From: Longimicrobium sp.
GTDB taxonomy: Bacteria > Gemmatimonadota > Gemmatimonadetes > Longimicrobiales > Longimicrobiaceae
NCBI GenBank assembly: GCA_036389795.1
Contig: DASVWD010000246.1
Span: forward strand, 1 to 64,000
DNA length: 64,000 bases
Reading direction: 5' to 3'
The notes under the pieces are model-generated. The model had not been told where the DNA came from. It did no database searches and was given only the letters and a program-made list of their open reading frames with translations. Of the stretch, positions 14,698 through 28,918 are shown piece by piece. The position numbers and the translations under genes are program-made. The number at the start of each line of letters is the position of its first letter. Position 1 is the first letter of the stretch.

Positions 14698-14754
14698 AAG
14701 GAGTCCGCGAAGGCGGACTTTGCGCCGTTGTTGCCGCGGATTCATCCGCCCTTC
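14698..14754 (-). repeat. R6 dispersed repeat, copy 1
   Basis: On the minus strand it reads GGCGGATGAATCCGCGGCAA followed by CAACGGCGCAAAGTCCGCCT and TCGCGGACTCC, with GTCCGC/GCGGAC inverted parts. Relatives lie at 24.75, 37.14 and 55.03 kb. It fills the 142-bp gap between two glycosyltransferase genes. Confidence 0.65.
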
Positions 14755-14785
14755 GCCCGGCCTTCCCCCGAGCCCGCCCCTGACG

Positions 14786-15931
14786 ATGCGCATCGTCTTC
14801 TTCGTCCACAGCATCGTCTCGGACTGGAACCACGGGAACGCGCACTTCCTGCGCGGGCTGATGAGCTCGCTCACCCGGCTGGGGCACGACGTCTCCTCGC
14901 ACGAGCCCCGCGGCGCCTGGTCGCTCGCGAACCTGCTGGCCGACCACGGCGTGGGCCCGGTGGTCGAGTTCGCCCGCGCCTACCCGGAGATCGACGTCCA
15001 CGCGTTCGACCCCGCGTCCCCCGCGCTGCAGGAGGAGCTGGCAGCGGCGGCCGCGGGCGCGGACGTGGTGGTCGTGCACGAGTGGAACGAGCCGCACGTG
15101 GTGAACGCGCTCGCCCGCCTCGCGCCGCGGGCCGGGGCGCTCGCCGTCTTCCTCGACACGCACCACCGGCCCTGGAGCCAGCCCGAGGCGATCGCCCGCT
15201 TCGACCTCCTGGCCTTCGACGCCGTGCTCGCCTTCGGGCGCGTGCTGCGCGACGTCTACCGCGCCCGCTTCGGCGTGGCGCGCGCCTGGACCTTCCACGA
15301 GGCCGCCGACGTCGTGCGCTTCCGCCCCCTGGCGCGCGAGAAGGAGCAGGACGTGGTCTGGATCGGCAACTGGGGCGACGAGGAGCGCACCGGGGAGCTG
15401 CGCGCCTTCTGGCTCGACTCCGCGCGGGCGCTGCCGGAGCTCCGGTTCGTCGCGCACGGCGTCCGCTACCCCGAGTACGCGCTCGCCGAGCTGGCGGACG
15501 CCGGGGTGGAGTTCCGCGGCTGGGCGCCCTCGGCCCGCGTCCCGGAGATCTTCGCCCGCAGCCGCGCGACCCTGCACGTGCCGCGGCGCGCCTACGCCCA
15601 GGCGCTGGCCGGGATCCCCACCATCCGCGTCTTCGAGGCGCTGGCGTGCGGCATCCCCCTGGTCAGCGCCCCCTGGCACGACGCCGAGGAGCTCTTCCGC
15701 GCGGGCGACTACGCCGTCGCCCGCACCCCGGCGGAGATGCGCGACGCGCTGAAGCGGCTGGCGGCGGACGAAGACGCGGCGCGCGCGCAGGCCGAGCGCG
15801 GGCTGGAGACGATCCTGGCGCGGCACACCTGCGACCACCGCGCCCTGGAGCTGCTGGACATCGTCGCCGGGCTGGGCGCGGCCGGGAGCGCGGGAACGCT
15901 GGCAGGGACCGCCGTCGCCGCGAGCGGATGA
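14786..15931 (+). CDS. CgeB-like glycosyltransferase 1
   Basis: A 381-residue GT-B-type glycosyltransferase resembling CgeB/spore-maturation-type family members. It starts MRIVFFVHSIVSDWNHGNAH. Mid-protein is DVVWIGNWGDEERT, and the C-terminal domain has HVPRRAYAQALAGIPTIRVFEALACGIPLVSAPW, a donor-site block followed by an extended helix. Its N-terminus aligns with the two later CgeB-like genes (S-x-x-S-W-N-G pattern, R-G-H-x-V, then Glu), so these three are paralogues in one operon. Its ATG follows an R6 repeat, and its stop overlaps the next gene. Confidence 0.82.
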   Translation: MRIVFFVHSIVSDWNHGNAHFLRGLMSSLTRLGHDVSSHEPRGAWSLANLLADHGVGPVVEFARAYPEIDVHAFDPASPALQEELAAAAAGADVVVVHEWNEPHVVNALARLAPRAGALAVFLDTHHRPWSQPEAIARFDLLAFDAVLAFGRVLRDVYRARFGVARAWTFHEAADVVRFRPLAREKEQDVVWIGNWGDEERTGELRAFWLDSARALPELRFVAHGVRYPEYALAELADAGVEFRGWAPSARVPEIFARSRATLHVPRRAYAQALAGIPTIRVFEALACGIPLVSAPWHDAEELFRAGDYAVARTPAEMRDALKRLAADEDAARAQAERGLETILARHTCDHRALELLDIVAGLGAAGSAGTLAGTAVAASG

Positions 15932-16263
15932 TGGCGCGGCTTTCGGAGGCGGAGTTCAGGGCGACGTTCGACGCGCCGATGCAGCGGGTGGGCATGGACG
16001 AAGGGCCGCCGTTCGACTTCTGGCCGTACGTCGACGCCATCCCGGCGGAGGACTTCGAGGGCCACGACTGCTCCCCCGGGTCCGTGACGTACGCCTACCG
16101 CGACGAAAGCGGGCGCTACCAGCACGTGCTGATCGACTCGGAGGCCCGCGACGTCTTCATGGCGGTGGTCCTCGACCTCCGGGCGGAACGGGTGGTCGGC
16201 CATCACCTGCTCGACCTCCCGAAGCTCTACGGTCCCGACGGCGAGAGCGAGGAGCCGGCATGA
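15928..16263 (+). CDS. conserved-looking small hypothetical protein in the glycan operon
   Basis: 111 residues with a double ATG (15928/15931) overlapping the preceding stop codon, so it is translationally coupled. The protein is acidic with many aromatics (FDFWPYVDAIP, SVTYAYRDESGRYQHVLIDS) and has no signal peptide or membrane segment. The strand-rich pattern and a VDxIPxEDFxGHDC segment look like a compact alpha/beta domain, but I recognise no family. The operon position between glycosyltransferases suggests an accessory role. Alternatively, it is an unrelated housekeeping insertion. Confidence 0.75.
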   Translation: MMARLSEAEFRATFDAPMQRVGMDEGPPFDFWPYVDAIPAEDFEGHDCSPGSVTYAYRDESGRYQHVLIDSEARDVFMAVVLDLRAERVVGHHLLDLPKLYGPDGESEEPA

Positions 16264-16288
16264 AATCCACCGCAGCGGCGGAGGCCAC

Positions 16289-17374
16289 GTGGAGCTGACC
16301 TTCTTCGGATCGTCCCTCGTCTCGTCGTACTGGAACGGCGCGGCCACCTACTACCGCGGGCTGCTGCGCGCGCTCTCGGACCGCGGGCACCGCGTCACCT
16401 TCTGCGAGCCCGACGCCTACGACCGCCAGCAGAACCGCGACCTGGCGGAGGACCCGGACTACGCGCGGGTGATCGTCTACCGCTCCGAGGCCGAGCGCGG
16501 CACGCTGGTGGCCGCCGCGTTCGAGACCAGCGACTGGGTGATCAAGTGCAGCGGCGTGGGCGTGTGGGACGCCGAGCTGGAGGAGGCGCTGGCCGAGCGC
16601 TCCGGCGGCCGCGCGCGGACGGCGTTCCTGGACGTGGACGCGCCCGCCACCCTCGCCCGCATGGCCGCCGACGCGGCCGACCCCTTCCGCGCGCACGTCC
16701 CCCGCTACGACCACGTCTTCACCTACGGCGGCGGCCCGCCCGTGGTCGAGGCGTACGAGCGGTGGGGCGCGCGGGGGTGCACCTGCATCTACAACGGCCT
16801 GGACCCCGACGAGCACCGGCCGCTGGAGCGCCCCGAGCGCCCCGGGTTCGACCTGCTCTTCATGGGGAACCGGCTGCCGGACCGCGAGGCGCGCGTCGAG
16901 GAGTTCTTCCTGCGTGCCGCCGCCCTCTGCCCCGAGCACCGCTTCGTGCTGGGCGGCGAGGGGTGGGGCGACAAGCCGATGCCGCCCAACGTCACCTGCC
17001 TGGGCCACGTCCCCACCGCGCGGCACAACGAGGTGAACGCGTCGGCGCGGCTGGTGCTCAACATCCACCGCCAGTCGATGGTGGAGAACGGGTGGAGCCC
17101 GGCCACGCGGATGTTCGAGGCCGCCGGCGCCGCCTGCTGCCAGGTGACCGACGTGATGCGGGGGATCGAGGACTTCTTCGCCCCCGGCGAGGAGATCCTG
17201 CTGGCCGCCGACGGCGCCGAGGTCGCCCGCCTGGTGCGCGAGACGGGCGACGACCAGGCGCGCCGCATCGGCCAGGCGGCCAGGCGGCGGGCGCTCACGA
17301 GCCACACCTACGCCCAGCGCGCCGCGCAGATGGACGCCGTGCTGCGCGCGCCGGTGGCGGAGGGCGTCGCATGA
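16289..17374 (+). CDS. CgeB-like glycosyltransferase 2
   Basis: 361 residues. The N-terminus is FFGSSLVSSYWNGAATYYRG and the protein is collinear with the next gene. It contains FTYGGGPPVVEAYERWGARG, LLFMGNRLPDREARVEEFF and the C-terminal NASARLVLNIHRQSM...GWSPATRMFEAAGAACCQ block typical of CgeB-like glycosyltransferases (GT1-type C-domain). The GTG at 16289 is preceded by GCGGAGGCC, a usable ribosome site. The stop overlaps the ATG of the next paralogue by 4 bp. The product is expected to be cytosolic and to act on a nascent glycan; acceptor and donor are unknown. Confidence 0.83.
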   Translation: MELTFFGSSLVSSYWNGAATYYRGLLRALSDRGHRVTFCEPDAYDRQQNRDLAEDPDYARVIVYRSEAERGTLVAAAFETSDWVIKCSGVGVWDAELEEALAERSGGRARTAFLDVDAPATLARMAADAADPFRAHVPRYDHVFTYGGGPPVVEAYERWGARGCTCIYNGLDPDEHRPLERPERPGFDLLFMGNRLPDREARVEEFFLRAAALCPEHRFVLGGEGWGDKPMPPNVTCLGHVPTARHNEVNASARLVLNIHRQSMVENGWSPATRMFEAAGAACCQVTDVMRGIEDFFAPGEEILLAADGAEVARLVRETGDDQARRIGQAARRRALTSHTYAQRAAQMDAVLRAPVAEGVA

Positions 17375-18447
17375 AGCTGGTGGTCTTCGGCCTCTCCCTC
17401 TCGTCGAGCTGGGGGAACGGGCACGCCACCACCTACCGCGCGCTGCTCCGGGCCTTCGCCGCGCGCGGCCACGAGGTCGTCTTCTGGGAGTGGGACGCGC
17501 CCTGGTACGCCGCCAACCGCGACCACCCCGAGCCCCGCTACTGCGAGCTGAAGCTGTACGCCGACTGGGACGCGGTGGCCGCGGAGGCCGTCGCCGAGGC
17601 GCGCGAGGCGGACGCGGCCATCGTCGGCAGCTACGTGAACGAGGGCCCGCGGGTGATCGACGCGCTGGCCGGGGCCGGCGTGGACCCGCTCTTCTTCTAC
17701 GACATCGACACGCCCGTCACCGTCGCCGCGCTCCGCAGCGGCGGGGCCGAGTACCTGCGCACCGACCAGGTGCCGCTCTTCACCCGCTACCTGTCGTTCA
17801 CCGGCGGCCCGTTCCTGCAGGGCGTGGTGGAGGGCGAGCTGGGCGCGCGCGAGGCGGTGCCGCTCTACTGCTCGGTCGACACCGGGCGCTACCACCCCAC
17901 CGAGCCCGACCCCGAGCTGCGCTGCGACCTGGCCTACATGGGGACGTACGCGGAAGACCGGCAGCCGGTGGTCGAGCGCTTCCTGCTGGAGGTGGCCGAG
18001 CGGCTGCCGCGCCAGCGCTTCATCGTGGCCGGGCCGCAGTATCCGGCGGACATCCTCTGGCCGGGGAACGTGCGGCACCTGACGCACCTGCCCCCGCAGC
18101 GGCACCCGCGCTTCTACAGCAGCGCCGCCTGGCAGCTGAACGCCACCCGCGCCGACATGGTGGCCGCCGGGTGGTCGCCCTCGGTGCGGCTCTTCGAGGC
18201 GGCGGCCTGCGGCGCGGCGATGCTCTCCGACCGCTGGCCGGGCCTGGACCACTTCTTCACCCCGGGGAAGGAGATCCTCCTCCCGGAGTCCACCGGGGAA
18301 GTGGTCGAGATCGTCCGCTCCACGCACCCCGACGACCGCCGCGCCCTCGGCGCCGCCGCCCGCGCGCGCATCCTCGCCGCCCACACCGCCGAGCACCGCG
18401 CCGGGGAGCTGGAGCAGCTGATCACCGCGCCGGCGACGGCGATGTAG
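17371..18447 (+). CDS. CgeB-like glycosyltransferase 3
   Basis: 358 residues, the closest paralogue of the preceding gene. FGLSLSSSWGNGHATTYRAL at the N-terminus and LSFTGGPFL mid-protein are followed by LAYMGTYAEDRQPVVERFLL and a C-terminal SSAAWQLNATRADMVAAGWSPS...LFEAAACGAAMLSDRW block, then an E/D acidic segment. ATG 17371 overlaps the preceding stop. It is the last gene of the glycan locus, and 64 bp downstream the GC content drops at the border of the SIR2/STAND island. It looks functional with all blocks intact. Confidence 0.83.
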   Translation: MKLVVFGLSLSSSWGNGHATTYRALLRAFAARGHEVVFWEWDAPWYAANRDHPEPRYCELKLYADWDAVAAEAVAEAREADAAIVGSYVNEGPRVIDALAGAGVDPLFFYDIDTPVTVAALRSGGAEYLRTDQVPLFTRYLSFTGGPFLQGVVEGELGAREAVPLYCSVDTGRYHPTEPDPELRCDLAYMGTYAEDRQPVVERFLLEVAERLPRQRFIVAGPQYPADILWPGNVRHLTHLPPQRHPRFYSSAAWQLNATRADMVAAGWSPSVRLFEAAACGAAMLSDRWPGLDHFFTPGKEILLPESTGEVVEIVRSTHPDDRRALGAAARARILAAHTAEHRAGELEQLITAPATAM

Positions 18448-18480: not shown

Positions 18481-18516
18481 GCCGGAGTGGGGTAGCTCAG
18501 CGGCTCAGCGGTCAGA
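18481..18516 (+). other. tRNA 5'-half-like fragment at the island border
   Basis: GCCGGAGTGGGGTAGCTCAG followed by CGGCTCAGCGGTCAGAG looks like a tRNA acceptor 5' strand plus D-arm (TAGCTCAG-CGG-TCAGAG), with an internal 8-nt duplication (CTCAGCGG twice). No anticodon or T arm follows; the sequence runs into the 3' end of the STAND gene. It may be the scar of an integration event or a chance match. No matching direct repeat was found by eye at the other island border. Confidence 0.35.
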
Positions 18517-20905
18517 GAAAACTGAAGAGAAGAACGGTAATACCCAACGCAAGTACTGCGGCACAGTAAAACAACAGATCGGGTACTCTCAGGCTCGTTG
18601 AGTCAGATTCTGCCCTAGCGCGAGTACCAGCGAGTGCATCGTAAGCGGTCTGGTGCTCGGACGTACTGCGAATGATTGCAGGCGAAAGCAGGAGGGTTGG
18701 AATCGCTATGAACAGATCCAGAATAGCCCATATCGTGAACAGGCACTGACGGGCTAGCATACGGCCTCGACTGGGTGAACTCCCTGCCCGGTCTGCAATC
18801 CACAGTCCGGCCATTCTGAATCCGACCGTACTCCCAGCTCGTCGCAGGTACTCGAACTGAATGAATGTGGAGGTACCCACCCCAACCAACAATGCCGCAC
18901 CCTGCATTCCAAACCGAAATAGCGCGAGGGCATCGAAGACTACTACCAGCAGGATCAGAAAACTCCACAGCGCTATAACCACCGTGAGGGCCGCGTCGAT
19001 GTATTCGGCGAAAATCAGGCGAATAATCCATGTTGAGTGTCCCCCTAGCCCGACTCGGTGAGCAACCTGTAGACAGCTCCACAGGTAGAGGGGCATTGTG
19101 ACAAGGGCTACGCACGCCACCATCACCCCCATTCGAGTACCCGAGAAGGGGTCCGTGTCCAGTACCGTGACGGCCGCGATTAGAACGCTCGCCACGGCCG
19201 CTGCGGAGTAGAAAGCGCGGTGAAGTACGGCTAAAAGGATGGTTGTCAGTCCGACGGCGAGCGACAGCCAGAAAACGCCTTCTGCCGCTGGTCCCAGGAT
19301 GAACAGGAGAGCCAAGCCTATGGTGACCATCGGTCCGGCCCCGAGCAGACGCAGTGCCCGTCGCTCCGCTGCGAGTGCCTGTCCCGACCTCTTCCGTTCC
19401 TCTTGGTCCCGCTGCTTTCGCACAGCGATCTCGCCAGCCCGCGCGCGGTCCAGAGTGCGCCACGACCGCACCACCGATCGCACCGCAAAATCGTGTGCGA
19501 GTTCGTAGTGCGTCTGCCCCCCGGCACCGATGTGGGACCGGACCACCCCTCGTTCGAGGAGGGGCTCCAGAGCGGTCCGCAGCAGATCGGCGTCGGGGGA
19601 GGGAAGATCCAGATCGGAAGGCCGAATTGACCGCAGTTCTCGCAGCAGCAGTCGATCCGACAGCGCGCGCCGGTGGCGGACGCGGTCGGTCAGCAGGTAG
19701 AGGCAGTCCAGCCGCAACTCCCTCCAGGCCACGGGCTCGAGCCGCGCGTCGTTCCGCAGTTCCGTGAGCATGTCGTCGATGTAGTGGTCGAGAACCACGT
19801 CGGCGGGTGAAGGCTGCGACGCGGACGGCTGTGATGCGGCACCGGACTCTGTCGCGGACAGGTGTTCCCCGAGGCTGCGGTAGTGTGCCAGTCCGAAAGG
19901 AGTCTCGCACGCGTCCCGGGTGTCCCAGAGGCGCTCCGCCACCACCTGAAGAGCCGGAAGCTCGAGAAACGGATCGTCGGAAGGCGGTGGGGCGAGCCCG
20001 ATTCCGTCGAAGCGGCCTCTCTGAATCTCGCCGTAAGCCTGGATCAGGTCTGCAAGGATTGCATCCCGTGTCTCCTCCGGCAGGGCCAGCCCCAATCGCG
20101 TGAGTGGGACCGTGAGAGCGCTTGCCGCCTGGCTCTTCCGGATCGGGTTCAGCTTGAAGTAGTGCGAGAAGATGTCGGGGATCGCGCTCCGGAACTCGAT
20201 CATGCTGCCCACCGAGTCTTCGCGCATTGAGAAGAGCAGGTGACATTTCAGCGAAGTGTCCTGCCATACCCTCCCGAGTTCCGCGACGAAGTTCTGAAAG
20301 ACGGGCGTGTTGCCGAAGTGGACGAAGAGCTCTTCGAACTGGTCGCAGATGATCAGGATGCGTGCTTCGTCCCCGAGGAAGTTTCGCGTCTCCCGAACGA
20401 ACTCCACCAGCGGGAGGTCACTCCTCTCCAGCATGTGTTTCGCGAACCGTTCCGCGTATGCGGACGTGCTTTTCAGCCGTTCGATCAGCGATTCCAGCCT
20501 GGTGAGGACGGTATCGAGCCCGGGCTGCTCGACTAGCAAGGGCGAGAGGTGCACCCTCACGTCCTGCAGGGACTTCAGGTCCTCGCCTCTGAACAAGGGT
20601 AGCGTGGCTTCGCGGATCACCGATTCCTTGAATGCCCGTACGGGATCGTCCAGGCACCATGGCGGCCGTGGCCGCGTAGTGAATACCGCATAGCCGCGCT
20701 CGCGGAAGAGCGGGACAACGCCCGCGCGAATGAGGGAAGTTTTGCCGTTCCCCGAGAATGAATAGAGAAGCGAGACCCGCGAGGCCGAGATCATGTTGGC
20801 CACGATCGCGAGTTCGTCCGCTCGCGTCAGCCGGATGAGCTCTTGGTCAGCAGGGTTGTCGCTCTCAAGCGCCGTGAGAAAGCGCCAGGGGCTGGTGGAT
20901 GGCAT
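18512..20905 (-). CDS. STAND-type NTPase with C-terminal multi-pass membrane/RDD domain
   Basis: 797 residues. The N-terminal NTPase domain has a Walker A loop SFSGNGKTS (about 49-57, first Gly replaced by Ser) and a Walker B segment ILIICDQFEEL (about 183-193), as in the nSTAND1 group of signal-transducing ATPases. A helical region to about 500 ends in a winged-helix-like LLERGVVRSHIGAGGQTHYELAHD block. Instead of the usual WD40 or TPR sensor repeats, the last 270 or so residues hold several hydrophobic segments. The final part resembles an RDD domain (RLIFAEYIDAAL, GSTVGFRMAGLWIADRAG, TAYDALAGTRAR). The gene lies 145 bp downstream of the SIR2-like gene on the same strand, and its GC is clearly lower than the flanks. 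A membrane-anchored sensor/switch controlling the SIR2 effector is inferred. Confidence 0.82.
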   Translation of the reverse strand: MPSTSPWRFLTALESDNPADQELIRLTRADELAIVANMISASRVSLLYSFSGNGKTSLIRAGVVPLFRERGYAVFTTRPRPPWCLDDPVRAFKESVIREATLPLFRGEDLKSLQDVRVHLSPLLVEQPGLDTVLTRLESLIERLKSTSAYAERFAKHMLERSDLPLVEFVRETRNFLGDEARILIICDQFEELFVHFGNTPVFQNFVAELGRVWQDTSLKCHLLFSMREDSVGSMIEFRSAIPDIFSHYFKLNPIRKSQAASALTVPLTRLGLALPEETRDAILADLIQAYGEIQRGRFDGIGLAPPPSDDPFLELPALQVVAERLWDTRDACETPFGLAHYRSLGEHLSATESGAASQPSASQPSPADVVLDHYIDDMLTELRNDARLEPVAWRELRLDCLYLLTDRVRHRRALSDRLLLRELRSIRPSDLDLPSPDADLLRTALEPLLERGVVRSHIGAGGQTHYELAHDFAVRSVVRSWRTLDRARAGEIAVRKQRDQEERKRSGQALAAERRALRLLGAGPMVTIGLALLFILGPAAEGVFWLSLAVGLTTILLAVLHRAFYSAAAVASVLIAAVTVLDTDPFSGTRMGVMVACVALVTMPLYLWSCLQVAHRVGLGGHSTWIIRLIFAEYIDAALTVVIALWSFLILLVVVFDALALFRFGMQGAALLVGVGTSTFIQFEYLRRAGSTVGFRMAGLWIADRAGSSPSRGRMLARQCLFTIWAILDLFIAIPTLLLSPAIIRSTSEHQTAYDALAGTRARAESDSTSLRVPDLLFYCAAVLALGITVLLFSFL

Positions 20906-21050
20906 TGAGTTGGTCAGTGTAATCCCGAGTAGATCAGACTATGCACTGCGTGCAGCCATCGACCTGCACGCCTCTTCCAGCGACGTTCCACCGTGCCGCA
21001 TCCACAGGATCATCGAACATTTCAAGCGCCCCGGTCTCTCTCCGATTCTT

Positions 21051-22028
21051 TCACGTCCTGTCGGGGGAGGATTCGACCAATTCCTGGACACTTGCGAGCA
21101 GATCCTGCATGAAAGTCGATGCATCAACGTTGATGATGTCTACGTTCTTCTTTCCCCAGAAACCTACTGTGGCGTTCCAGCGCGCGCTCTGGGTCTCGTC
21201 GCCTTCCTTCGGCGTGAAGAGCTGCACCGCATAACTTCTGGTGCCCGAGCGCTCCGCCGTGGCCTTGTAGATGACGCGGAAGTTCCAATCGGAGAGACTG
21301 TAGCCGACGAATAGCGTGGGCCATTCCGTGATGTTGGCCAGCACATAGGGGAGCAAGCGCTTATGCTCATTGTGGCTCAATGCATTGGATAGAAAGTTGA
21401 TGTAGTCCTCCTCCGTGATGACCAAGTTCCTGCCGGTCGCCTGCGAGATGCAGCCGTGCATCTTGTAGAGATACGTCGGCTTCTTCGGGAGCCAGAGATG
21501 GGGGTGGCGGATACCGGGGTGCAGATGAGCGGCGTCGTCGTTTGCATCAGTACCACCATTGTAGATGATCACTTCTGGCCGGTAACCGAACACCTTCTCG
21601 TATGCTCGCTCGAAGTGATCGTCGTAATTGGTTGTGACGATCAATGCCTGGACACCCTTCCGTTCGAACAGAGCTACGAGTTCAACGAGCGTGGTGATCG
21701 TCTTTGAGGGCTTTGCTTTGGGGTTGTTCAGGTTTTCACGCAGGAAAGCATTGAGTTCGTCGCGAGAAAAGAACGATTCGTAATAGAACGCGACGGTGGA
21801 GAGTGGAACGTACTCGTGCCACTCCAACCGGCATTCCTTGGCAAACTTGCGGGACAGGTCACTGGCCGTGGGCAGGCTGGTTCCGTCAACGGTGCCAGCA
21901 GCGGCGCCCGCACCCAGAAAGATTAGTCCTTCACCATTGAGGAGTTGCCGCGCGAGCGACCGCAAGGCACCGCGGTAGTCGAACGTCGGCTTCCCGTCCG
22001 TGTCGAGGATACGCTTGATCTCACCCAT
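21051..22028 (-). CDS. SIR2-like domain protein (predicted NADase effector)
   Basis: 325 residues, essentially one SIR2-like domain of the type found in anti-phage effectors. Visible motifs are FLGAGAAAG (about 37-45, NAD-binding loop), VTTNYDDHF (131-139, with the catalytic-site Asn134), YKMHGCI (His191), VITEEDYINFL (about 203-213) and LFVGYSLSDWNFR (about 239-251). All core residues appear intact, so NAD hydrolysis is plausible. No membrane segment or signal peptide is seen. It is the first gene of a minus-strand pair with the STAND-RDD gene. GC is much lower than in the housekeeping genes, consistent with horizontal transfer. Cellular NAD depletion upon infection is inferred from known SIR2 defence proteins, not shown here. 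Confidence 0.87.
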   Translation of the reverse strand: MGEIKRILDTDGKPTFDYRGALRSLARQLLNGEGLIFLGAGAAAGTVDGTSLPTASDLSRKFAKECRLEWHEYVPLSTVAFYYESFFSRDELNAFLRENLNNPKAKPSKTITTLVELVALFERKGVQALIVTTNYDDHFERAYEKVFGYRPEVIIYNGGTDANDDAAHLHPGIRHPHLWLPKKPTYLYKMHGCISQATGRNLVITEEDYINFLSNALSHNEHKRLLPYVLANITEWPTLFVGYSLSDWNFRVIYKATAERSGTRSYAVQLFTPKEGDETQSARWNATVGFWGKKNVDIINVDASTFMQDLLASVQELVESSPDRT

Positions 22029-22320: not shown

Positions 22321-23658
22321 ATGAAGCCGCAGCGCCCGACGACGTCCGTCATCGCCATCCTCGCCGCCTTCCTCGCCCTCGCCGCGTGCGGGCCGCAGCG
22401 CACGGCCCCGCGCGCGCAGCCCGAGCCCGAGGCGGAGCCCAGCAGGCTCGCGCCGGTGGCGTGGGACTCGGCCTCGGTGCCGGACTCGATCGCCACGTGG
22501 GCGATCAGGGGGTGCCGCAGGGGCGGGGTGAACCAGCGGCGCGACTGCGTGGAGCGGGGGCTGCGCACCGTGCTGGACGCTGCGGGGATCGCCAAGGCGA
22601 TGGCGGCGCTGGACCGCATCGTCGAGCGCGACACCAGCCTGCTCCCCGAGGCGCACGGGCTGGCGCACGGGCTGGGGATCGCCGCCTACCGCTCGCCCGA
22701 GACCGTGGCCGAGACCTTCGCCCAGTGCCCCGACACGCAGATCGCCGGGTGCTACCACGGCGTCATCCAGGGCTACTTCCTCGACGTGCAGCGGCGCGAG
22801 GGCCGGCTCTCCGCCGAGGCGCTGAACGCGCTCTGCGAGCCGCACCGGGCGCGCGGCAACCCGATGTTCGGCGAGTGCTCGCACGGGATGGGGCACGGGA
22901 TCATGGCGGTGGTGGACTACCGCCTCCCCGACGCGCTGGCCGCCTGCGACTCGGTGCGCGACCCGTACGCGCGCCTGGGCTGCCAGGGCGGCGCCTTCAT
23001 GGAGAACATCGTCAGCGCCACGCACCCCGAGCACACCGCCCACTCGCACGCGGCGCTCGGCGAGGGGGAGCACGGCGGCCACGCGGCGCACGGCGGCGGC
23101 GAGGGCCACGGCGACCACGCCGCGGGCGACGGCGCCGCGCGCGAGCCGTGGAAAGCGGTGGACCGGTCCGACCCGCTCTACCCGTGCAACGCGGTCGCGC
23201 ACCAGTACCGCTACGCCTGCTACGGCATCCAGACCTCCGCCATCCTGTTCTTCAACGGGGGCGACTTCCCCGCCACCGCGAAGGCGTGCGAGGGGGCGGG
23301 GAACACGCTGGTGGAGGTGTGCTGGCGCAGCCTGGGCCGCGACATCACCGCCTACGCCCGGCGCGACCCCGCGCGCAGCGCCCAGATGTGCGCCACCGCG
23401 GGCGAGAAGGCCGAGCCCCACTGCGTCAGCGGCGCCGCCACCGCGCTGGTGGACGTGGAGTCGGACCCGGAGGACGGGTTCGCGCTCTGCCGCGTCGTCA
23501 CGCGCCCGGAGTCGAAGACCGAGTGCTACCAGGCCGTGGGCCGGATGGTCGGCTTCGCCAGCGAGCCGGCGCGCCGCGAGGAGGCCTGCGCCACCGTCGA
23601 GGCGGGCTACGTCGAGACCTGCCGCCTCGCCGCCTCCCTCCCCGCGCGGAAGACGTGA
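22321..23658 (+). CDS. Cys/His-rich lipoprotein, paralogue A
   Basis: 445 residues with a lipoprotein signal (FLALAACG, Cys about 23). The mature part has many regularly spaced Cys and His motifs: EAHGLAHGLGIAAY, GCYHGVIQGYF, CSHGMGHGIM and GCQGGAFMENI. A very His/Gly/Glu-rich low-complexity loop (about 235-275) comes next, followed by further Cys pairs in the C-terminal half. The HGxxHG and GMGHG patterns suggest metal or haem ligation, but I know no named family. It is strikingly similar in length and motif order to the gene at 27566-28918. It is probably anchored in the periplasm. Function unknown. Confidence 0.85.
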   Translation: MKPQRPTTSVIAILAAFLALAACGPQRTAPRAQPEPEAEPSRLAPVAWDSASVPDSIATWAIRGCRRGGVNQRRDCVERGLRTVLDAAGIAKAMAALDRIVERDTSLLPEAHGLAHGLGIAAYRSPETVAETFAQCPDTQIAGCYHGVIQGYFLDVQRREGRLSAEALNALCEPHRARGNPMFGECSHGMGHGIMAVVDYRLPDALAACDSVRDPYARLGCQGGAFMENIVSATHPEHTAHSHAALGEGEHGGHAAHGGGEGHGDHAAGDGAAREPWKAVDRSDPLYPCNAVAHQYRYACYGIQTSAILFFNGGDFPATAKACEGAGNTLVEVCWRSLGRDITAYARRDPARSAQMCATAGEKAEPHCVSGAATALVDVESDPEDGFALCRVVTRPESKTECYQAVGRMVGFASEPARREEACATVEAGYVETCRLAASLPARKT

Positions 23659-23894
23659 CGCCGATCTGCTCACACGGAGTCAGCTAAAGAATCGCTGAGA
23701 GTCTGGAAAGTTGTTGTAAATCCTTGATGTTCCGAAAGTGCCTACCGGACTTCGCGGGCCGAAACGCCCGACTTTACCGGCACACCTATCTCATGATCTA
23801 GCCCACTGGCGCGTGTGTCACGCGCCCAAAACTGAAAGCAATTGAACGGCTGCCGAGGTCCGCGCCCGCCGAACATGGTCGTTGTTCCCGGAGC

Positions 23895-24683
23895 TCAGCT
23901 CTTCGGGCAGCGAACAGGACCATGGCCTATCTGGTAGAGCTGGTACTGTCCGGGGGCCAAGGGAATGTAGAGGATGTCGGTGTCCCCGTTGTCAGTATAG
24001 ACGCCGATCAGCCCGAAGCGTCCGACGCGCCGTAACGAAAGGGAGTCGGGAACCGCTCGCGGCAGGCCGTACTTGGTGTACGATCGGTCCTTGAAGTAGA
24101 TCGTCCGGCTCTCCACGTACCAGGGCGCCTCCGCGGCGTAGACCGGCGTGGACGGGAGCGGCAGCACCGTGTCGGGCACCACGTCGTCGCCACGGGAGTA
24201 CCCGAGCACGCGCGGGGACCAGGAGGTCGCGTGACCGAAGGCGGAGACCACCCAGCGGCCATCCTCGCGCCGCCATTGCACGAACATCGGAGACCGCGCG
24301 GATTCTCCCGGCGGCACGAAGCGGTTTCCGGCGACCCGCCGCCAGCGCGTCCCGTCCGCCTCAATCCTCATCTCCAGTTCGGTCCCGTACGGCCCCGAGA
24401 ACCCCTGGAAGGACTCGCACACAGGACCGTAGTGCAAGACGGTCCGCAGCGTCTCCGGGGCCGCGAAGCGCCAGACCGTCAACCCCCGCCCGGGTGGCGC
24501 GCCCTCCACCACCTGCGTCCACGTCCAATCGCCGCGGCGCGGGAAGAACTTCGCCACGCTGTCATTCGGCGCACGCGTCACCGCTCGGAGAAAGGCTTCG
24601 TTCCGGCTCTCGAGCCCATCCTGGGCGGCGGCGCGGAGCGGGATCGCGAGGAGAAGCGGGAGGATGAAGAGGATTCGTGGCAT
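23895..24683 (-). CDS. secreted hypothetical protein
   Basis: 262 residues with a signal peptide ending about AAAQD. The mature protein is beta-strand-rich and aromatic, with no known catalytic motif. The C-terminal part (EAPWYVESRTIYFKDRSYTK, then YGLPRAV, GLIGVYTD, DILYIPLAPGQYQLYQIG) matches, in order, a segment of the small secreted protein at 48597-49106, so both carry one uncharacterised domain. It is a single minus-strand gene. The 236 bp between it and the preceding plus-strand gene contains a partial R1-like TCACACGGAGTCA (about 23669) and nothing else I can name. Confidence 0.75.
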   Translation of the reverse strand: MPRILFILPLLLAIPLRAAAQDGLESRNEAFLRAVTRAPNDSVAKFFPRRGDWTWTQVVEGAPPGRGLTVWRFAAPETLRTVLHYGPVCESFQGFSGPYGTELEMRIEADGTRWRRVAGNRFVPPGESARSPMFVQWRREDGRWVVSAFGHATSWSPRVLGYSRGDDVVPDTVLPLPSTPVYAAEAPWYVESRTIYFKDRSYTKYGLPRAVPDSLSLRRVGRFGLIGVYTDNGDTDILYIPLAPGQYQLYQIGHGPVRCPKS

Positions 24684-24746
24684 GAAGCGCTTCCGGGTTG
24701 CAATGTGGATCGGTGAACGTCACCCGCCCCGGCGGCAGAGGTCCAG

Positions 24747-24791
24747 CCAAGGGCGAATGAATTCGCTGCAACAACCACGCGAAGTCCGCGC
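24747..24791 (+). repeat. R6 dispersed repeat, copy 2
   Basis: GCCAAGGGCGAATGAATTCG, then CTGCAACAACCACGCGAAGTCCGC, a diverged copy of the 14.7-kb repeat. It lies just upstream of the minus-strand secreted-protein gene. Confidence 0.55.
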
Positions 24792-24904
24792 GATATTCGT
24801 TGATCTGGAGCGGATTGCGGGCGTCGAGCACCGGCGCGGACGCTCGTTCTACGGGCTGCGCAGACAGGCGACCGACCCAGCACCCGAATTCTCCCAGGAC
24901 ACGG

Positions 24905-25069
24905 GTGCTTAACAGCATCTCCGGCCACGCCTACAGCGCCACGCGTGAGCAGGTTTATCAGGACAAGGAGAACGAGCGGGTGCGCGCCCGTGCCGCGAAG
25001 ACGCGCAGGTCCATGCGGCAGTACCTGATGGACCCGAACGCGGCGGAGCTCGACGCGATTGCGGCGTGA
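24905..25069 (+). CDS. possible small protein or gene remnant
   Basis: 54 codons from GTG 24905. The sequence (HAYSATREQVYQDKENERVR, then RAAKTRRSMRQYLMDP) has protein-like charge and helix patterns and normal codon bias, but no ribosome site or recognisable family. It may be the 3' remnant of a larger gene. The surrounding 24684-25317 shows no other gene; 25070-25317 has no visible feature. Confidence 0.25.
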   Translation: MLNSISGHAYSATREQVYQDKENERVRARAAKTRRSMRQYLMDPNAAELDAIAA

Positions 25070-25317
25070 TCCAAACCTAGTCCCACAAACAGTACCACCC
25101 GGCCCCATCGACGGAAGAGCCACGACAGCGCATCTCGCTGCTTTGTCTTCACTTACAAGACTTTGCGTCCGCAAGGACCGCGGATGCGCATGGAAATGTC
25201 CTGCAAGGGAAGGCTGCGACCGGGGTACGACATCAAGGTAACGACAAGAGAAGAAAACATCAGGTCTGCAACGTGATATGAAGTAGCGCCTCACCCACGG
25301 TGCGGGGCGGAAAGACG

Positions 25318-25349
25318 AAGGGCGCATCCTCCCGGGGGGATGCGCCCTT
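25318..25349. terminator. strong hairpin downstream of the GHL10 gene
   Basis: Perfect 12-bp stem AAGGGCGCATCC / GGATGCGCCCTT with an 8-nt loop, 28 bp beyond the stop of the minus-strand glycosyl hydrolase. On that strand it is followed by CGTCTTTCC, so it fits an intrinsic terminator. Confidence 0.7.
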
Positions 25350-25377
25350 CGCCGCGCTGGCGCGAGGGGACGTCCGG

Positions 25378-26682
25378 TCAGTGCAGCCACGCCATGCGGG
25401 GGGCGGCGGCGGGCTCGCGGAAAGGGCCCTCGGCCAGGAAGCGCAGGCCGCCGCGGCCGGCCAGGACGCTGTACGAGTAGAAGGCGAAGCCGTTCACCCC
25501 GCGCTCGCGGCCGATGCGGATCTGCTTCTCCATCTCGGCGAAGGGGAGGCCGGCCAGCACGGCGGCGTACACGTGGCGGCCGCTCGGGCGCATCCCGTCC
25601 ACGTGGTCGGCCACCATGCAGTCCCAGTCGGGGACGGCCACCTCGCCGGGGCGGCGCGGCTCGTACGTGCAGCGCCGGTCGGCCACGTAGAAGTAGGTCA
25701 TGGGGACGGCGGCGTCCAGGTAGCCGCCGCTCGCCCACCCCCAGGTGTCCTGGAAGTACTCGGCGATCCCGCTGGACGAGCGCCGCCACCCGAAGCGCTC
25801 GCGGTCGTAGATCGGCCACACGGCCGCGGAGAGGGGCACGGGGCGGACGGCGTGGATGCTGTCGTGGACCTCGCGCACCGCCCGGCTCACCAGCTCGCGG
25901 CGGAAGCGCGCCCACCCGGCCGGGTCGTCCCTGGGGTCGCGCCCGAACGCCGCCAGCGACGCGGGGTCCCACCCGAAGTCGGCCTCGGGGTAGCGGATGC
26001 GGTCCAGGTGCACGCCGTCCACCGCGTAGCGGCGCACCACGTCGGCGGCCACGCGGGCCAGGTGCGTGCGCACGCCGGGGTGGCCGGGGGAGAGGTAGAC
26101 GTACTCCTGGCCGTTGGGGCACCCCTGCGGCCGCCCGCTCCGGGTGTGCATGGCCCACTCGGGGTGGTCCAGCAGCACGTGGTTGGGCTGGCCGGGGGCG
26201 CTCCGCACCAGGGCGCGGCAGTCGTCGGCGCTCTTCGACTCCCACCCGGAGAGCGCGTTGATCCAGGCGTGGAGCTGCAGCCCGCGCGCGTGCGCCTCGC
26301 GCACCGCCACCTCCAGCGGGTCCCAGGTGGGCACCCCGCCCAGCACGCCGCACAGCCGCGGCGAGCACGGGTCCAGCCGCGAGGGGTAGCGCGCGTCGGA
26401 GGGGCCGCGGACCTGGAAGTAGACGATGTTGAAGTGGGCGCGCCGGGCGTTCTCCATCACCTGCCGGATGGTGGCCTCGGAGCCGTAGTCCCAGCGGTTG
26501 ACCCACAGCGCGCGCGCCTCCTCGCGGAGCGCGGGCCGGGCGGGCGGCGCGGCGGCGGCGGCCGGGAGGAAGCCCGGCGCGGGGGCCGCGGCCGCGGGGC
26601 GCAGGACCCTCGTCCCCGCCAGGGTGCCGAGCAGGAGCGCGGGCGCGCAGGCGAGGAGGGCTCGCCTCGGGATGGACTTCAT
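25378..26682 (-). CDS. GHL10/DUF187-type glycosyl hydrolase-like protein, secreted
   Basis: 434 residues beginning MKSIPRRALLACAPALL with a signal sequence or N-terminal anchor, then an Ala/Pro-rich linker. The catalytic-like domain is a TIM barrel of the glycosyl-hydrolase-like 10 (DUF187/YngK) family: EARALWVNRWDY, FNIVYFQVRG, HAWINALSGWES, the conserved YAVDGVHLDRIRYP, then LSAAVWPIYD and PMTYFYV. Family members are thought to act on cell-surface glycans, but no substrate can be assigned. ATG 26682 is chosen because it starts the signal sequence; the upstream 31 codons are not protein-like. A clear terminator hairpin follows. Confidence 0.88.
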   Translation of the reverse strand: MKSIPRRALLACAPALLLGTLAGTRVLRPAAAAPAPGFLPAAAAAPPARPALREEARALWVNRWDYGSEATIRQVMENARRAHFNIVYFQVRGPSDARYPSRLDPCSPRLCGVLGGVPTWDPLEVAVREAHARGLQLHAWINALSGWESKSADDCRALVRSAPGQPNHVLLDHPEWAMHTRSGRPQGCPNGQEYVYLSPGHPGVRTHLARVAADVVRRYAVDGVHLDRIRYPEADFGWDPASLAAFGRDPRDDPAGWARFRRELVSRAVREVHDSIHAVRPVPLSAAVWPIYDRERFGWRRSSSGIAEYFQDTWGWASGGYLDAAVPMTYFYVADRRCTYEPRRPGEVAVPDWDCMVADHVDGMRPSGRHVYAAVLAGLPFAEMEKQIRIGRERGVNGFAFYSYSVLAGRGGLRFLAEGPFREPAAAPRMAWLH

Positions 26683-26923
26683 GCTTTCAACGGGATGGGG
26701 CCGGAGCGGCCACGGGGTCGTGCGGGAGAGCGCCGTCGGCGGCGCGCGTATGCGAGGGGGTTGGATCGCATCCAATCTATACGCGAGTCTCCGCTCCGCG
26801 CGAGGGGCGGCTGAACGGAGGGTTCCGCGGAGGTCCCCGATCAGGGAACAAACCGGCGAGGGCGCCCGGTATCAGCAGCCCGTCCGCGGCGGGAGTTCGA
26901 CCAGCGGCGAAACGGAGGGAACG

Positions 26924-27325
26924 ATGTTGCGTGGCGTTCGCGCGCGGCGCACCGTGCTCCGGGCGGCGGTCTACGGGATTCTCGTCGTGGCGCTCTCCGG
27001 GTGCTCCGACCTCCTCGCCGTGGCCGGGCTCTCCGACCTGTCGGGCTTCTGGGTGGGGCGGTACGACTCCGAGCTGGACTTCTACCTGGACCTGGACGAC
27101 GACGTCTACGGGCTCTACGGCCGGGCCGGCTTCCTCCGCGGCCGGTCGTCGTCCGACCTCTTCGTCGACGGCGAGCGCGACGGGAGCCGCGTCGTCTTCT
27201 ACTCCGACGAAGCCGGCTCCAGCGGCCTGATCGTCTTCGAAGGCCACGTCACCGGCCGCGACCGCATCGAGGGCCTGGTCTACCTGGAGCCGATCCCCAG
27301 GCGCGTCGTCCTCCGCCGGGAGTAG
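26924..27325 (+). CDS. small hypothetical lipoprotein
   Basis: 133 residues with a clear lipobox (ILVVALSGC; Cys about 27). The mature part is acidic, Asp/Gly/Ser-rich and beta-strand-like: GFWVGRYDSELDFYLDLDDD, then SSDLFVDGERDGSRVVFYSD. Family unknown, though the alternation resembles a small beta-barrel such as a lipocalin-like fold. GGAGGGA at 26914-26920 is a strong ribosome site and fixes ATG 26924. The 240-bp gap before it shows no feature. An R1 repeat follows it. Confidence 0.8.
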   Translation: MLRGVRARRTVLRAAVYGILVVALSGCSDLLAVAGLSDLSGFWVGRYDSELDFYLDLDDDVYGLYGRAGFLRGRSSSDLFVDGERDGSRVVFYSDEAGSSGLIVFEGHVTGRDRIEGLVYLEPIPRRVVLRRE

Positions 27326-27350
27326 CCCGCCGCCTTTCAACGGCCCGGCC

Positions 27351-27430
27351 TCGCGCAGAGGAAGCAGAGGGAGCAGAGAGAACCGCGCCGGGCGATGAGT
27401 TCTCTGCTGACTCTGCTCCTCTGCGTGAGA
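27351..27430. repeat. R1 palindromic hairpin repeat, copy 4
   Basis: TCGCGCAGAGGAAGCAGAGG on the left and GCTGACTCTGCTCCTCTGCG on the right, separated by a loop of about 20 nt. This is the most diverged copy, with AGCAGAG units. Confidence 0.75.
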
Positions 27431-27565
27431 TTGCAGTTGCCGTTGGGGTTCCGGTTCGCGTGCCCGGCGCGCGCCCTCCCCGGATTGCGCGCGGGCGTGC
27501 GCGTGCACAGTTTTCCAGGCGTCGGAGTGTCCGGCGAGATCGTTATCTCCAGACCACGCACCATC

Positions 27566-28918
27566 ATGCCGTCGAAGCTCAGGAACGTCGCCCTCGTCGC
27601 TCTCTGCGCCGCGTGCTCGCTCGCCGCGTCGCAGTGCACCGCCTCCCGCGGCTCCTCCGCCCCGGCCGAGGAGGCGCCCGCCGCCAGCCGCCTGGAGGCC
27701 CGCACCTGGACGCGCGGCTCGTCGCCCCGGCAGATCGCCGACTGGGTGCTGGCCGGGTGCCGCGGGGAGGACAAGGGCCAGTGCGTCGAGAAGGCGCTGG
27801 TGTCGGTGATCGAGCCCGCCGGGGTCGACAAGGCCATGGCCGCGCTCCTCCTCATCACCGCCAGGGACCCGGACATCGACCGCGACGGGCACGTCTACGC
27901 GCACGGCATCGGCATCGCCGCCTACAAGGGGCCCGAGACGGTGAGCCAGACCTTCGCGCTGTGCACCACCGATTTCCAGTCCGGCTGCTACCACGGCGTC
28001 ATCCAGGCCTACTTCGCCGACGACCGCGCGGGCGGCGGGGGGGTGACCGCCGAGAAGCTCAACACCCTCTGCACCGACTACCGCACCCCCGAGCGGCGCT
28101 GGCTGGACTTCCAGTGCTCGCACGGGATGGGGCACGGGCTGATGGCCGTCAACGCGCACAACCTCCTCACGGCGCTCGACGCCTGCGACCTGCTCACCGA
28201 GACCTTCGAGAAGCAGGGGTGCTGGGGCGGCGCCTTCATGGAGAACATCATCAACGTCACCCACCCCCACCACACGGCTACCACGCAGCAGGCCGATGGC
28301 GGCCACGGCGAGCACGGAGGGGCGCAGGCGGCGGCGGAGGGCGGACACGCGGAGCACGGCGGGGCGGCGCCCCACGCGCACGGCGAAGCGGCCGCCGAGC
28401 CGTTCAAGGCGCTGGACGAGGCGGAGCCGCTCTACCCGTGCACCGTCGTGCGGGAGCACCACCGCCGGCAGTGCTACCTGATGCAGACCTCGGCCATCCT
28501 GTGGCGCAACGGCGGCGACTTCGCCGCGGCCTCCGAGCAGTGCCTGCGGGCGCCCGAGGACATGCGGCAGACCTGCTTCCAGAGCCTGGGGCGCGACGCC
28601 AACTCGTGGGCGCGCGGCAGCCAGGAGCAGGCCATCGCCTACTGCGGCCAGGCCCCCGCCGACGTGCAGGCGTACTGCATCGTGGGCGTGGTGAAGAACA
28701 TCGTCGACGTCACGGCCAAGGCCTCCGACGGGCTGGGCTTCTGCAAGGAGGTCCCCGACGCAAGCAAGCCGGCGTGCTACCGGGCCGTCGGGCAGCAGAT
28801 CGGCATCCTGCACGCCGCCAGCCCCAGGCGCGAGCGCGAGTGCGCCGCCGCCGAGCGGGGCTACGTCACCGAGTGCCGCTTCGGCGCCGGCCTGGGCCTG
28901 CTCCGGAGCGACGAGTAG
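27566..28918 (+). CDS. Cys/His-rich secreted protein, paralogue B
   Basis: 450 residues, collinear with the gene at 22321-23658. Shared blocks are VYAHGIGIAAYKGPETV, GCYHGVIQAYF, CSHGMGHGLM, GCWGGAFMENI, an HPHHT-started His/Gly/Ala-rich loop (about 230-275), EPLYPCTVV, CYLMQTSAIL and evenly spaced C-terminal Cys. The N-terminus is a hydrophobic signal sequence rich in Cys/Ala; a lipobox is less clear than in paralogue A. Both copies keep nearly all Cys and His positions, which argues for structural or metal-binding roles. ATG 27566 was picked at the signal sequence; the longer frame runs into the R1 repeat. Confidence 0.85.
   Translation: MPSKLRNVALVALCAACSLAASQCTASRGSSAPAEEAPAASRLEARTWTRGSSPRQIADWVLAGCRGEDKGQCVEKALVSVIEPAGVDKAMAALLLITARDPDIDRDGHVYAHGIGIAAYKGPETVSQTFALCTTDFQSGCYHGVIQAYFADDRAGGGGVTAEKLNTLCTDYRTPERRWLDFQCSHGMGHGLMAVNAHNLLTALDACDLLTETFEKQGCWGGAFMENIINVTHPHHTATTQQADGGHGEHGGAQAAAEGGHAEHGGAAPHAHGEAAAEPFKALDEAEPLYPCTVVREHHRRQCYLMQTSAILWRNGGDFAAASEQCLRAPEDMRQTCFQSLGRDANSWARGSQEQAIAYCGQAPADVQAYCIVGVVKNIVDVTAKASDGLGFCKEVPDASKPACYRAVGQQIGILHAASPRRERECAAAERGYVTECRFGAGLGLLRSDE

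Follow-up and report, generated by a model that had tools for sequence, protein, structure and literature searches.

An undescribed superfamily of exported bacterial proteins with a predicted disulfide-clipped helical repeat fold and a putative metal site

Two paralogous genes in a Longimicrobium genome

The window analysed here, a stretch of 64,000 nucleotides from Longimicrobium sp. (contig DASVWD010000246.1), contains two paralogous genes, P0001 and P0002, whose products belong to a large, undescribed superfamily of exported bacterial proteins. Their open reading frames (ORFs) were confirmed at 445 and 450 residues, respectively, and a search of the 7.5 Mb genome aligned the two proteins end to end with 46% identity (E 3.9e-104) and returned no third full copy. 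Both carry, in the same order, HGLAHG or HVYAHG, GCYHGVIQ, CSHGMGHG, GC[QW]GGAFMENI, a His-rich loop and a series of Cys pairs. An earlier note on this DNA had proposed an exported paralogous pair with one clear lipobox, a common motif order and regular Cys pairs towards the C-terminus. These proposals were borne out by the end-to-end alignment, by the signal-like N-termini of both proteins, by the lipobox LAAC of P0001, which would be exported as a lipoprotein, and by five C-terminal Cys pairs at a spacing of 11 in P0002 (292/303, 326/337, 360/371, 393/404 and 426/437). The N-terminus of P0002 is signal-like without a standard lipobox (AASQC). The features below were assigned from the paralogue alignment, an alignment of 99 family sequences and an AlphaFold model of P0002 with its predicted local distance difference test (pLDDT) scores.

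22321..23658, + strand: P0001, predicted exported lipoprotein of 445 residues, member of the unnamed superfamily (family profile match in its own genome, E 1.0e-125)
22378..22389, + strand: P0001 lipobox LAAC, residues 20-23, read from the sequence
22654..22677, + strand: P0001 HxxxHxxG motif (H112, H116, G119), from the paralogue and 99-sequence alignments
22747..22770, + strand: P0001 GCYHGVIQ, from the same two alignments
22876..22899, + strand: P0001 CSHGMGHG, from the same two alignments
22978..23010, + strand: P0001 GCQGGAFMENI (Met invariant, Glu near-invariant), from the same two alignments
23023..23118, + strand: P0001 His-rich loop, accessory (paralogue alignment, loop comparison)
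23185..23622, + strand: P0001 C-terminal Cys-pair helical hairpin repeats (alignments, repeat profiles)
27566..28918, + strand: P0002, predicted exported paralogue of 450 residues (AlphaFold model)
27566..27658, + strand: P0002 signal-peptide-like N-terminus (sequence; model pLDDT below 50 over residues 1-28)
27890..27913, + strand: P0002 HxxxHxxG (H109, H113, G116), modelled helix 108-119, from the model and the 99-sequence alignment
27983..28006, + strand: P0002 GCYHGVIQ (H143), modelled helix 140-155, on the same basis
28115..28138, + strand: P0002 CSHGMGHG (H186, H190), modelled helix 175-195, on the same basis
28220..28246, + strand: P0002 CWGGAFMEN (M225, E226), modelled helix 213-232, on the same basis
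28262..28381, + strand: P0002 His-rich disordered loop, residues 233-272, accessory (pLDDT below 50 at 245-273; unconserved in divergent members)
28439..28876, + strand: P0002 five C-terminal Cys-pair hairpin repeats (model, repeat profiles, 99-sequence alignment)

Family, distribution and invariant residues

Neither P0001 nor P0002 matched anything in Pfam, NCBIfam or the PDB sequences, the divergent family members gave nothing credible in Pfam or NCBIfam, and literature searches found no published description of the family. The absence of a named family, as previously suggested, therefore held in the sequence searches, divergent members included, and in the structure searches. Sub-threshold matches to phytase, TerB and haem-degrading families were dismissed as chance.

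When bacterial and archaeal genomes were scanned, 168 stretches encoding the family came to light, of which 80 were kept; all of these come from records named Gemmatimonadota or Nitrospirota except for a single record under the title uncultured Nitrosospira sp. (L099). The protein of that record is at least 90% identical to those of Nitrospira. Profile searches detected the family in 92 of 395 Gemmatimonadota and 26 of 296 Nitrospirota genomes, in 28 of the 29 genomes of the genus of Nitrospira defluvii, and in nine of ten genomes of the window's own genus (7/7 of the good-quality ones). Divergent members, with identity down to ~20%, occur in both phyla, and two lie on plasmids, of Gemmatirosa kalamazoonensis and of Kitasatospora purpeofusca (Actinomycetota). 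Viral contigs contained no relatives, and phages gave no credible match. In the family tree P0001 and P0002 belong to two distinct clades of the genus, both well supported, which dates their duplication to the genus level. Two family genes also stand in tandem, ~70 bp apart, in a Gemmatimonadaceae metagenome-assembled genome (L038:9860-12734).

Five histidines and one methionine (H109, H113, H143, H186, H190 and M225 in P0002 numbering) are identical in 99 of 99 aligned sequences, down to ~20% identity, and the position that follows the Met is Glu in 95, Gln in three and Asp in one. These six residues stand in the motifs HxxxH, CxHG, CxHxxGH and CxxGxxM[E/Q/D]. Among 17 diverse relatives, 22 positions are at least 94% fixed, comprising ten Cys, six Gly, five His and one Met. 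Judged from these alignments, the conserved pattern lies far beyond chance, and no described family with this residue set was found.

Predicted fold and disulfide pairs

Structure prediction, which the earlier note had put forward as a check, gave two confident AlphaFold models, one for P0002 (pLDDT 85.8, predicted template modelling score 0.82) and one for the N. defluvii protein (pLDDT 87.1, 0.84). Both are essentially all helical, with the helices that bear the Cys/His motifs following one another, and these motif-bearing helices agree between the two models, which were built from different query sequences. According to DSSP, each model is a series of hairpins made of a short helix A and a long helix B, so that the chain would curve through about ten such units. 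HHalign comparison of hairpin-cut profiles linked repeats 6-7, 7-8, 6-8, 0-8 and 4-6 at probabilities of 94%, 92%, 88%, 88% and 84%, respectively, indicating, as these profiles recognise each other, that tandem repetition makes up a large part of the chain; repeats 1-3 have diverged too far for such linkage.

In most Cys pairs, one residue lies where helix A ends and its partner where helix B begins. Upstream of the His-rich loop lie the pairs 65/73, 133/141, 169/184 and 207/219, in addition to the five C-terminal ones, and across the 99 sequences the Cys columns appear and vanish in pairs. Co-variation is perfect for 393/404, 360/371 and 108/137 and strong for 426/437 (phi 0.95), 133/141 (0.91) and 65/73 (0.78), in rows that are kin, so that gains and losses are not independent events. 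These six pairs are the top six among all variable Cys column pairs, while 169/184, 207/219 and 292/303 show no variation at all. The pair 108/137 is a replacement found in ten divergent members, connecting the helix of H109 with the stretch that precedes the helix of H143. Given this pairwise gain and loss, the cysteines are most likely disulfides rather than ligands, and most hairpins would each be clipped by one disulfide. It had been suggested that Cys and His together look like metal ligands; the His part of this idea is supported by full invariance, and the Cys part was rejected, as paired co-variation of the kind expected of disulfides in an exported protein argues against Cys ligation.

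Disulfide-clipped alpha-alpha repeats are a scaffold type already known from the Hcp proteins. Helicobacter HcpB and HcpC, with Sel1-like repeats, are exported proteins of ~34-38-residue alpha-alpha hairpins whose disulfides clip successive helices (PMC3851747). The family resembles them in its predicted tandem hairpins of ~36 residues (DSSP of both models and HHalign) and in disulfides that, from the paired gain and loss of Cys, probably clip successive helices. It differs in its Cys spacing (mostly 11-15), its asymmetric hairpins and its invariant His/Met cluster. This likeness raises the alternative, to which we assign a small probability, that these proteins are Sel1/Hcp- or TPR-like adaptors binding a peptide or protein, with the His and Gly residues being structural or lining a groove and no metal being bound. 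The nearest local Foldseek matches fit such a role, namely armadillo/TPR-type solenoids for the Nitrospira model (9ijj, 7sqc and LGN 4wne) and Sel1 proteins in another search. The solenoid matches, however, reach E 0.002 at best, with a template modelling (TM) score of ~0.2 and a root-mean-square deviation of ~19 A, and neither Cys pairs nor a His cluster is a hallmark of those families, in contrast to the present one. Neither PDB nor viral structures gave a Foldseek match at E <= 0.001, and no whole-fold PDB match appeared, with TM at most 0.31 (at most 0.26 for the Nitrospira model) among the matches listed, HcpC not being one of them. Moreover, 17 close and ten divergent members gave no Sel1 match at E up to 10, a TPR match in Pfam was likewise absent at that threshold, and five strictly invariant His plus a Met are atypical of binding grooves.

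A putative metal site

The invariant His and Met residues are without exception carried by the B helices (108-119, 140-155, 175-195 and 213-232) of four successive hairpins, in confidently modelled regions. Counted from the Cys of the respective hairpin, both H143 and H186 sit at C+2 and both H190 and M225 at C+6; these equal offsets place them on matching faces of adjacent helices. Our preferred reading, with about even confidence, is that the family comprises cell-envelope metalloproteins in which a disulfide-locked alpha-alpha repeat scaffold carries a site of five His, Met and Glu, most likely for copper. The HxxxH, H, HxxxH and Met-Glu elements, at matching depths on the four second helices, would form a single buried site, probably for two adjacent metal ions, with H109/H113/H143 and H186/H190/M225 or E226 as putative ligand sets. 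The protein might then act in the envelope either as a redox enzyme or in copper handling. The stronger proposal, that this is a new class of all-helical, disulfide-locked envelope metalloenzymes with a dinuclear, probably copper site of HxxxH plus His and HxxxH plus Met/Glu on four successive hairpins, conserved in Nitrospira and many Gemmatimonadota and without structural precedent, is considerably more tentative and in our judgement unlikely.

Copper is weakly favoured because of the His/Met-rich loops of some members and the neighbourhoods of two divergent homologues. On the Kitasatospora plasmid pKP058, the homologue lies directly adjacent to, and ~100 bp upstream of, Caa3_CtaG, and the surrounding region (L133:8969-19308) brings together a carbonic anhydrase, the family member, CtaG, an M56/BlaI-type pair, CcsB and CopC-CopD. 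In one Nitrospirota genome, genes for a cupredoxin, a 570-residue exported or membrane protein without Pfam match and a divergent homologue follow one another in this order on the same strand, possibly as one operon (L113:2155-5702). Such single cases favour a metal role, and copper somewhat. The presence of CcsB, a cytochrome c assembly gene, together with the many His, could also point to a haem-binding protein with axial His ligands; the earlier note had suggested metal or haem. We regard haem binding as very improbable, since neither P0001 nor P0002 contains the CxxCH motif by which haem is attached in c-type cytochromes, no haem family was matched, and the Cys behave as disulfide pairs; haem found no specific support.

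Several observations weigh against the copper-site interpretation. We infer from helix register that the His side chains come together in a single site. Clustering of neighbours at ~80 loci of the main family revealed no operon partner conserved across lineages, and the inspected clusters were mostly housekeeping (glutaminyl/glutamyl-tRNA synthetase, PriA, RsgA and TatA/B/E); an apparent large common cluster was discarded as mostly antisense shadow ORFs. CtaG occurs in 306 of 395 Gemmatimonadota, and in the Longimicrobium genome itself it lies on other contigs than P0001 and P0002. The co-occurrence of CtaG with the family in Gemmatimonadota (85/92 family-positive versus 221/303 negative genomes, uncorrected for kinship) is uninformative because CtaG is so common there, and was not used as evidence. 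The Nitrospira loop holds His without Met, and Nramp transporter genes, which would equally fit manganese or iron, occur close to two of the divergent members (L121 and L122).

It is possible, though unlikely, that the same fold and site bind zinc, manganese or iron and that the family members act as hydrolases or other enzymes that do not use copper. Zinc and di-iron are often bound by HxxxH plus Glu, and besides the Nramp genes, the confinement of Met-His motifs to the loops of part of the family is consistent with such a metal. Nevertheless, zinc or iron sites do not usually include a Met that is strictly invariant, and of the metal-gene neighbourhoods found, the clearest point to copper.

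The His-rich loop, modelled as disordered in P0002, has a median length of ~50 residues in Gemmatimonadota and of ~28 in Nitrospirota. Met-His motifs occur in 20 of the 64 Gemmatimonadota loops, whereas those of Nitrospirota contain no Met. Because it is missing or His-poor in divergent members, the loop is best seen as accessory, and the earlier idea that it stores or senses a metal is plausible only in that accessory sense. In many Gemmatimonadota this flexible loop, rich in His and sometimes Met, may capture or deliver metal beside the site. A non-enzymatic lipoprotein that binds or scavenges metal, with the loop as its functional part, would agree with the presence of the loop in P0001, P0002 and most close relatives and with the lipobox of P0001. 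We hold it to be improbable, if slightly less so than an adaptor role, given that the five core His stay constant where the loop is lost or His-poor.

Comparison with known copper proteins

Among known copper proteins, the residue set of the proposed site invites two comparisons. In the dicopper enzymes peptidylglycine alpha-hydroxylating monooxygenase (PHM) and dopamine beta-hydroxylase (DBM), CuM is bound by two His and one Met. CuH is bound by three His (PMC6123673). The family, read from sequence, equals these enzymes in its count of five His and one Met, possibly by coincidence, whereas their folds are beta-rich and the family models are all-helical, with no Pfam match and no sequence relation. 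Tyrosinase and haemocyanin hold a dinuclear type 3 copper site on helices and use the HxxxH motif. The family likewise has HxxxH on helices around a putative dinuclear site, but with five His and a Met instead of six His, no profile match and a different repeat fold.

Other genes in the window

Glycosyltransferase genes and a candidate anti-phage defence pair lie upstream of P0001, the pair standing between the glycosyltransferase cluster and P0001, and two further genes of note lie between the paralogues.

14720-18447, + strand: at least two Glyco_trans_1_2 glycosyltransferases (14720-15931 and 17365-18447), with a similar-looking ORF between them (16289-17374)
18512-22028, - strand: nSTAND1 NTPase (PF20703, E 1.7e-23) beside a SIR2-like gene (PF13289, E 4e-24; PADLOC ThsA, E 6e-15), the candidate defence pair
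23895-24683, - strand, between the paralogues: exported-looking protein of 262 residues, no Pfam or PADLOC match
25378-26775, - strand, between the paralogues: GHL10 glycosyl-hydrolase-like protein (PF02638, E 9e-30)

Implications

The family spans at least three phyla and yet is absent from Pfam and NCBIfam, and nearly every genome examined from the genus of the nitrite oxidiser N. defluvii encodes it. If copper or another metal is bound, these proteins would represent a new metalloprotein architecture.

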